Shown one piece after another: positions 1,037 through 60,053 of a stretch of 60,133 nucleotides of DNA. The notes beneath the pieces are model-generated. The model made no database searches, was not told the origin of the DNA, and saw nothing but the letters and a program-made list of their open reading frames with translations. Both the position numbers and the translations under genes were made by a program. The first letter of the stretch is position 1. Each line of letters opens with the position of its first letter. Source of the stretch: a bacterium (GTDB lineage Bacteria; Campylobacterota; Campylobacteria; Campylobacterales; Sulfurimonadaceae); assembly GCA_018824305.1 (NCBI GenBank), contig JAHJGM010000041.1, positions 1-60,133 on the forward strand. The letters are read 5' to 3'.

Positions 1037-1349
1037 CTCAAACCTTTTTAAATCATATTCTTCTCAACATCTTACCAAAGAAAAAACTTATCACAACTTT
1101 TTTATCTACTTGTTTAATTATTAAAACATTATTTTTGTGTCAAATTTTTTCTCTCTAAATAGATAAAATGAAAATAGAGAAGAAAAGAAAACTCCTTAAT
1201 TGATTAGAGGAAGTGTAACTTAAAAGAATAGATGATTGTAAAAAGTGCCACCTAAAGTGTCACAAGATTTTGAAAAAATAACCCTAATTAACATTAATTG
1301 TAAACAGCCAAATCCCTATGTTACCGTGTATGACGATATCTCAACTTTT

Positions 1350-1394
1350 CTCATAAGCCGGGGGTCGGGGGTTCAAGTCCCTCTTTTGACACCA
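1350..1394 (+). other. 3' half of a CAU-anticodon tRNA; probable attachment-site junction
   Basis: The bases read as a tRNA from the anticodon loop to the CCA end: loop CTCATAA (1350-1356, anticodon CAT at 1352-1354), anticodon-stem 3' strand GCCGG (1357-1361), variable loop GGGTC (1362-1366), T stem GGGGG/CCCTC with loop TTCAAGT (1367-1383), acceptor 3' strand TTTTGAC (1384-1390), discriminator A and CCA (1392-1394). No acceptor 5' strand, D arm or anticodon-stem 5' strand precedes it, so it is not a functional tRNA. A break in the anticodon loop with the 3' half kept is the classic footprint of tyrosine-recombinase integration into a tRNA gene. The tRNA is Met or Ile2 type. Confidence 0.75.
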
Positions 1395-1466
1395 TCCACA
1401 AACTCCTATTTTAAAAACTTTCCAACTTTTTTAAACAATCAGTCAAAATACGATATCCTTTGTCTA

Positions 1467-1475
1467 TGCTACAAT
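1467..1475 (+). promoter_or_regulatory. extended -10 promoter element
   Basis: TGC followed by TACAAT (1470-1475) fits the extended -10 used by sigma-70 promoters of Campylobacterota, where -35 boxes are weak. It would start transcription near 1482, about 37 bases before the gene at 1519. It lies outside the tRNA fragment, on the core-genome side. Confidence 0.45.
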
Positions 1476-1518
1476 TCGTTTTTTTAAGAGTTGTGTACAA
1501 ATATTCAAGGTTTCTATT

Positions 1519-1908
1519 GTGAGTATATTCGCTTTACAATCTCCAGCCGGCGGGTTTCTGGATGAGGATTTAAAACATTTTAATAAAAGATTTGATGAGT
1601 GGTGCGTTCAATTTAAGAGCTACGAAGATGCTATGAGTATAGTGCAAACACTCAAAAGACCCGAGAGTGTGGACGTTGTTGAGATAACGCCTCTTAGCTA
1701 TCCTCAATACTACTTTCCCTCTCTTCAAGGCACTGTCCATGCTACACGCCAGATCGGGGAAAAGATCATCTGTATCGTAGAGCCGTTCATGGGTTCCAGC
1801 TTCCGTATTGCGGTGTGCGATCTCAAAACCAAAACAGTCAATGTAACAAAAGCCCACTACAAAAATGTCTTGAGTGTAGAGGGGGCTTTTGCCAACTTCA
1901 GCGAGTAA
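1519..1908 (+). CDS. conserved hypothetical protein, 129 aa
   Basis: Not recognised as a named family. The reading frame starts at a GTG with AAGG at 1507-1510 at good spacing, and an extended -10 lies upstream. The product is soluble, mixed alpha/beta by composition, with no signal peptide, membrane segment or obvious catalytic motif. It has two cysteines, one at residue 29 in the sequence EWCVQF. It is the first gene after the tRNA-fragment junction and is convergent with the kinase gene at 1944-3203. Base composition is close to that of the core genes rather than the AT-rich DNA to its left. Confidence 0.7.
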   Translation: MSIFALQSPAGGFLDEDLKHFNKRFDEWCVQFKSYEDAMSIVQTLKRPESVDVVEITPLSYPQYYFPSLQGTVHATRQIGEKIICIVEPFMGSSFRIAVCDLKTKTVNVTKAHYKNVLSVEGAFANFSE

Positions 1909-1943: not shown

Positions 1944-3203
1944 TTAAAGTGTGATCTCACTAAAAAGAGGTCTCTGTTTCACATTTTCATTCATACATCT
2001 TTGGCTAAGATTTACAAGACTTTTGTATAAAGATGTTTCTTTATCACGACAGTTTTGAAGTAGGTCATCGACAAGGCATCCGAATGCTCTTACTTCAATT
2101 TTCTCAAATTTTTTGTTATTTACGTCATAAAAGGTGGCTGCCCCAAAGTCACCAAAATAGATATGTCCGTTTTTCTGGTTAAAAAGAATGTTGTGGGCAT
2201 ACAGGTCACCGTGCATCATACCTTTTGCATGTAGGTGTACAGAAACACTAAGCATCGCTTTGGCGATACCGTAAACGGTTTCAATAGTAAAAGAGATATC
2301 TTTAGCAAAGGTGTCACGAGTACAGGTGTCAAAATCGGGAGGGAACCCAAGATTCTGATAAGCTTTAGGTATAAGTTCTAACACCAAGCCCTGTGGGTCA
2401 TTCCCCTTGATTTTAGCTTTAACACTTATAAGATTAGGATGATCTGCTATACTCATATAAGCCTGCATCTCATCTTTGGCATAACCGTCTGTCGTCAGAT
2501 CTCCTTTAAAGAGTTTAACTGCCACCTCTTTTTCAAATGATTTGGCATATCCTTTATAGATCTGACCTGATGCACCTTCTCCCAACAGTTCATACAGCTC
2601 CAAACTTTCATACTCGATCTCTTCAAGTTTGGAATCAGAAGCCGCACTGCACGGATTTCCGGAAAATGCCAACCAAGAAAGTTTTGGTAATTCTAACAGC
2701 CACTCAGGTATTTGTGTGAGCTTATTTGCAGAGAGTCTAAACAGCTCTAGGTTCTTACAGTTTGCCATCTCTTTAGGAAGTGATGTGAGCTCATTACCGG
2801 CAAAAGTACATTTTTGTAATAAGGTCAACTTCCCAATGGAACTCGGCAGGCTTTTGAGTTTGTTGTCCGTTAGGATTAACCAACGGATACTGGTAGGTAA
2901 AATATCTTCGTCAAACTTTTCGATTTTATTGGCTTTGAGCCCAAGCATATAAAGATTATGGCACTGTTTAAATGCAGATGGTACCGCCGTAAAGCAATTG
3001 TTCGACAAAAATGCGATTTTAAGTTTGGTAAGTTGTGAGATCTCATCCGGAATCGAAGAAAGCTGATTATTGCTAAGATCAAGTATCTCTAAACTATCTG
3101 CCAGATCTAATATCTCAAGAGGAAATGAAGAGAGGTTCTCTGATAGTGTCAGACGTTTGACCCCTTTGAGCTTGCCCGATTTTAATTCGCTAAGCGTATG
3201 CAT
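1944..3203 (-). CDS. leucine-rich-repeat protein kinase
   Basis: A 419-residue fusion of a leucine-rich repeat sensor or scaffold with an eukaryotic-like Ser/Thr kinase. Residues about 14-185 hold seven or so repeats of about 23 residues of the LxxLxLSxNxLxxLP type. Residues about 204-419 are the kinase: glycine loop GEGASG (208-213), VAVK with the ATP-binding lysine at 230, catalytic loop HGDLYAHN (331-338; HGD replaces HRD) and DFG (352-354). All catalytic residues are present, so activity is plausible. No membrane segment or signal peptide is seen, so it should be cytoplasmic. There is no cognate phosphatase nearby. LRR-kinase fusions are known in bacteria but uncommon; the substrate is unknown. 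Confidence 0.88.
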   Translation of the reverse strand: MHTLSELKSGKLKGVKRLTLSENLSSFPLEILDLADSLEILDLSNNQLSSIPDEISQLTKLKIAFLSNNCFTAVPSAFKQCHNLYMLGLKANKIEKFDEDILPTSIRWLILTDNKLKSLPSSIGKLTLLQKCTFAGNELTSLPKEMANCKNLELFRLSANKLTQIPEWLLELPKLSWLAFSGNPCSAASDSKLEEIEYESLELYELLGEGASGQIYKGYAKSFEKEVAVKLFKGDLTTDGYAKDEMQAYMSIADHPNLISVKAKIKGNDPQGLVLELIPKAYQNLGFPPDFDTCTRDTFAKDISFTIETVYGIAKAMLSVSVHLHAKGMMHGDLYAHNILFNQKNGHIYFGDFGAATFYDVNNKKFEKIEVRAFGCLVDDLLQNCRDKETSLYKSLVNLSQRCMNENVKQRPLFSEITL

Positions 3204-59977: not shown

Positions 59978-60053
59978 TGGCAGGCGAAGGGGGACTCGAA
60001 CCCGCAACCATCGGATTTGGAATCCGGCGCTCTACCATTGGAGCTATTCGCCT
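59978..60053 (-). tRNA. trnW: tRNA-Trp (CCA anticodon)
   Basis: Minus strand: acceptor AGGCGAA (60053-60047) pairs with TTCGCCT (59988-59982), discriminator G and encoded CCA. The D arm reads AGCTCCAATGGTAGAGC, the anticodon stem/loop GCCGGATTCCAAATCCG has anticodon CCA, and the T arm is GGTTCGAGT. A complete 76-base gene. Trp tRNA before secE is typical of this phylum. Confidence 0.97.

Follow-up and report, generated by a model that had tools for sequence, protein, structure and literature searches.

A displaced CAU tRNA 3' half very probably marks the right end of a decayed genomic island

Genomic islands that have integrated into tRNA genes at the anticodon loop are a class for which the closest described collection is Islander, which reports anticodon-centred sites in 2083 islands and includes 125 tandem entries (PMC4383910). 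In such islands an intact tRNA gene is regenerated at one end, and a 3' fragment in the same orientation is found at the other. Closer in target are the zot prophages of Campylobacter, since several of the tRNA-Met attachment sites given in Table 2 of the respective study begin with CTCATAA and run past the CCA (PMC5025632), and the CJIE4 prophage of Campylobacter jejuni, which is integrated beside tRNA-Met (PMC3995785). Among the publications listed by literature searches for islands or prophages of Sulfurimonas-type bacteria, none names this site in its title or abstract opening.

The feature described here is very probably a new, decayed tRNA-integrated island, an arrangement that as such is common, well understood and textbook. 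Its right end lies in the window, i.e. the whole stretch of 60,133 nucleotides that was analysed, which represents the entire contig C50 of a draft genome of 71 contigs (G000). As in the Islander class, the crossover would fall at the anticodon loop, with an intact tRNA gene at one end and a displaced 3' fragment, probably in the same orientation, at the other, and tandem cases are likewise known there; it is unlike that type in that only a relic of the integrase is present, that the 3' half occurs three times and that the island is split over contigs (PMC4383910). Three of the features by which islands of this type are recognized were observed, namely an intact target tRNA gene, a displaced 3' fragment that spans the tRNA from an established crossover subsite up to the CCA, and an uninterrupted site in a relative. 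With the zot prophages the locus shares a site that begins with CTCATAA in tRNA-Met and runs past the CCA, but these prophages reside in other genera and, judged by the tabulated sites, use an initiator-like tRNA sequence, the likeness concerning the attachment sites (PMC5025632). CJIE4, in turn, is a full prophage, unlike the island described here, and the likeness to it concerns the tRNA-Met location (PMC3995785).

As the initial annotation had proposed, the 45 nucleotides at positions 1350 to 1394 (forward strand) are a CAU tRNA 3' half. They begin with the first base of the anticodon loop, end with the CCA and differ by one mismatch from an intact gene elsewhere in the same genome (C17:37480-37556). 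The additional statement that all 3' stems are intact holds for the 3' strands only, and the single substitution is located in the T arm. ARAGORN calls no complete tRNA at these positions, which are the sole site of this tRNA half in the 60-kb window (0 in 100 shuffles). The identity to the C17 copy extends by one base to the left (T1349) and by 19 bp past the CCA (1395-1413). At the other end of the window, a tRNA-Trp gene at 59978-60053 stops 80 bp short of the contig edge and is, as far as seen, unrelated to the fragment.

An intact gene sharing this 3' half had been predicted elsewhere in the genome; the one on C17 is the only intact copy found, and ARAGORN annotates it as tRNA-Met. A CAU tRNA may also be tRNA-Ile2 with a modified base, and the gene may be either. 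A second, degenerate 3' half, which has lost several bases, lies on C17 1.0 kb downstream of the intact gene, and DNA searches of the own genome (E 0.001) revealed no further copies. From the three copies of the 3' half, i.e. the intact gene and two fragments, we conclude that the island is composite or tandem.

The inserted side of the fragment became apparent from the comparison with G006, a complete genome of the same genus assembled as a single contig, in which groEL, groES (identified by reading the sequence), tRNA-Met, a spacer of about 150 bp and a homologue of the window gene 1519-1908 (forward strand) follow each other without interruption. The chromosomal flank of the tRNA gene in the window (1395-1518, forward strand) aligns with this spacer, including an exact match of 33 bp, and the gene at 1519-1908, a small conserved gene of unknown function without a Pfam match, is 90% identical at the protein level to the gene directly after tRNA-Met in G006. 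On C17 the order is groEL, groES and tRNA-Met as well, followed by other DNA than in G006. Because G006 is contiguous at this position, the DNA right of the tRNA gene on C17 and the DNA left of the fragment on C50 are both inserted relative to G006, and because tRNA-Met is joined directly to the equivalent of 1395-1908 there, the inserted side of the window is 1-1349, the fragment is the attR and 1519-1908 is the first chromosomal gene right of the island. The view that the window begins within the right end of a genomic island was thus borne out by a relative that lacks the insertion. The neighbourhood of tRNA-Met and this gene is not widely conserved, since no tRNA-Met was present in the flanks of its homologues in 52 other loci, many of which have short flanks; in G001, G002 and G007, a different sequence precedes the homologue and no tRNA half is evident. 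Further right, the ORF at 1944-3203 on the reverse strand seems, judged by eye, to encode a fusion of leucine-rich repeats and a protein-kinase-like domain.

The inserted right end itself (1-1349) has a GC content of 29.5%, which is the lowest among 1176 sliding windows of that size in the contig and compares with 38.1% for 1395-60133. It contains a glycosyltransferase family 2 gene on the reverse strand (305-1036; PF00535, E 1.8e-15), which is the last island gene before the attR, and both the AT-rich DNA and the glycosyltransferase had been recognized in the initial annotation. About 90 bp inside the fragment, at 1245-1263 (forward strand), lies a direct repeat with a spacing of 12 bp, GTGCCACCTAAAGTGTCAC, which differs by one change from the form present in an element of G219, where the direct repeat GTGTCACCTAAA(G/C)TGTCAC is found at both ends. 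With up to 3 mismatches, the repeat matches once in the 60-kb window, with 0.01 matches expected. The same repeat also occurs at the integrase ends in L064, L065, L066 and G002, and it is regarded here as a putative arm-type integrase site. For the remainder of the element right arm up to the tRNA fragment (1264-1349, forward strand), alignments were obtained with the G025 arm and with the one that precedes the second 3' half of C17, and the window arm as a whole aligns with these and with the ends in G219 and G167. An insertion-sequence end as the origin of this shared left flank was rejected, because the same repeats stand at the integrase end of intact elements.

Near the intact tRNA gene on C17, an integrase relic is located on the opposite strand, which matches residues 363-416 of a 419-aa tyrosine integrase (54 residues, 46%, E 9e-9). 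This integrase is intact in G002, a genome of the same genus, where it immediately follows the same tRNA (PF00589). The expectation that an integrase lies next to one of the tRNA copies was therefore correct in so far as the relic adjoins the intact copy, but only 54 C-terminal residues are left, and the assembly, in which the island itself is incomplete, yielded no intact integrase of this type. Three other integrases of the genome were considered as the island's own and rejected: the C4 integrase is not beside this tRNA and adjoins ileS, and those on C24 and C13 (281 and 271 aa) are short and presumably Xer-like. The C4 protein (L039:146-1108; 320 aa, PF00589 and Phage_int_SAM_4) lies near the left edge of its contig, next to ileS, and may resemble integron integrases. 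Another type of element occupies this site in G002:C15 (L045:5529-6861), where a second, different tyrosine integrase adjoins a further tRNA-Met 3' half and is preceded by GTG(A)CAC repeats. Between the spacer of G006 (C1, in L046) and the 3' end of the relic there is an exact match of 17 bp, which was not reached in 500 shuffles; this may be a vestige, in which case the site in G006 would be empty through the loss of an element and not because none had ever been present.

Using the G002 integrase as a query (E 1e-8), matches were obtained in 140 of 398 genomes of the order, and no relative was confirmed in the viral contigs that were scanned with it. Among the 30 best-matching loci, the integrase is accompanied by a tRNA or tmRNA gene in 23 (15 CAU, 4 Ala, 2 Ser, 1 Pro and 1 tmRNA), and in each of these the two genes point towards each other, with 14-99 bp between their 3' ends. 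ARAGORN calls no tRNA at the remaining 7 of these 30 loci; in one of them, L067 (G167), the integrase lies beside a 3' half, and an intact tRNA gene about 10 kb upstream makes this a tandem arrangement.

Elements of the same build exist in other genomes. In the complete genome G219, which consists of one contig, an element of about 21 kb is flanked on one side by an intact tRNA gene (1029591-1029667), with the integrase (1029748-1030959) next to it, and on the other by a 45-nt 3' half (1050626-1050670). In the complete genome G167 (C1:908188-973000), an intact tRNA-Met gene is followed by two 3' halves with an integrase after each, forming a tandem array. An arm homologous to that of the window (63.5% over 222 bp) is joined in G025, which belongs to another genus, to the 3' half of a tRNA-Arg(GCG), beginning at its anticodon loop; it follows from this junction that the element homology stops near the start of the tRNA homology, whichever tRNA is used. 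A weak match in G026 (L043) was rejected as a further arm, as no tRNA fragment adjoins it in the stretch read.

Taking together the intact gene and its fragments, the uninterrupted site in a relative, the integrase relic, the shared end repeats and the elements of like build elsewhere, we consider it very probable that a tyrosine integrase inserted a genomic island into a CAU tRNA gene and that 1350-1394 forms the core of its attR, which supports the island interpretation of the initial annotation. Recombination by the integrase would have taken place at the anticodon loop, between the chromosomal tRNA gene and the attP of the element, which carried a copy of the tRNA 3' half. This copy would have rebuilt an intact tRNA gene at the left end (attL), now on C17 beside the integrase 3' end, while the chromosome's own 3' half would have been displaced to the right end, in the window, with the original flank after it. 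Nearly all of the integrase would have been lost later by decay, and repeated insertion or deletion could have led to the composite island with its additional 3' half close to the tRNA gene. The exchange itself, the exact crossover and the order of these events are inferred, and a plain attP x attB exchange does not fully account for the identity of 19 bp past the CCA between C17 and the window or for the 17-bp match in G006.

That identity past the tRNA would instead fit 3' halves that arose by local duplication or rearrangement (homologous recombination or transposition) without site-specific integration, as would the presence of three copies, one of them degenerate, and the absence of an intact integrase from the assembly. 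However, the fragment starts at the first base of the anticodon loop, a starting point shared by the fragments of G219 and G167 as well as by that of a different tRNA in G025, an integrase relic adjoins the intact tRNA gene, and the element-end repeat is found at the expected place, so that we regard such an origin as highly improbable. Still less credible is a decayed second tRNA-Met gene that never served as an attachment site, since, even though one substitution in the fragment and several missing bases in the second copy on C17 are what a non-functional remnant would show, the right flank continues the single tRNA-Met locus of G006, where no tandem intact tRNA-Met genes exist, and the DNA left of the fragment matches element ends elsewhere.

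Under the preferred reading of the fragment as an attR, the island would run from C17, probably via C57, to C50. On C17, the tRNA gene is followed by the relic, genes for an MntA-like nucleotidyltransferase and a HepT-like ribonuclease (PF18765, PF01934) and the second 3' half, beyond which an M23 peptidase, HlyD, ABC and TolC-type proteins and a very large RTX-like ORF are encoded; the label RTX reflects our reading of its repeats. The N-terminal part of this ORF appears to lie on C57, and the gene, which is accompanied by a type I secretion set, is apparently split at its repeats across the right end of C17 and C57. The best HlyD matches in the genus outside the own genome reach 24-35% identity, and no prophage genes were present in the island parts examined. 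The overlap between C17 and C57 consists of repetitive sequence only, none was found between C57 and C50, and the left end of the window showed no overlap with C17 or C57. The island ends therefore lie on different contigs, their order and orientation being deduced from the synteny with G006, and the size of about 27 kb, summed over the three pieces, is a rough minimum on this putative path. The proposal that the element lies between two tRNA copies was accordingly supported with regard to the insertion, but there are three 3' halves, and the stretch from C17 to the window is not assembled contiguously.

The MntA/HepT-like pair (C17:37849-38503; L005:1839-2493) stands alone in a unit of 1.0 kb with 28% GC, which extends from the intact tRNA-Met gene to the degenerate 3' half. 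A unit of 1.4 kb in G025 (C78; L042:4860-6600) lies between an intact tRNA-Arg(GCG) gene and its 3' half and contains a single ORF of 145 aa without Pfam or PADLOC match; the unit gave no match to the integrases tested. Such short, integrase-poor units in two genera could conceivably be mini-islands that form a class of their own, and not just what deletions have left behind. They would retain nothing but the tRNA half and the right-arm repeats, depend for their movement on integrases supplied in trans by full-length relatives, and change their tRNA target from one genus to another; we consider this reading unlikely.

The attR sets the boundary between island and chromosome of the contig almost to the base. 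The first 1.35 kb are acquired, and so, probably, are the T1SS/RTX and MntA/HepT genes on the other contigs. The analysis further links a tRNA-Met-associated integrase subfamily of this order to a repeat with a spacing of 12 bp that stands at both ends and can be used to find other island ends.
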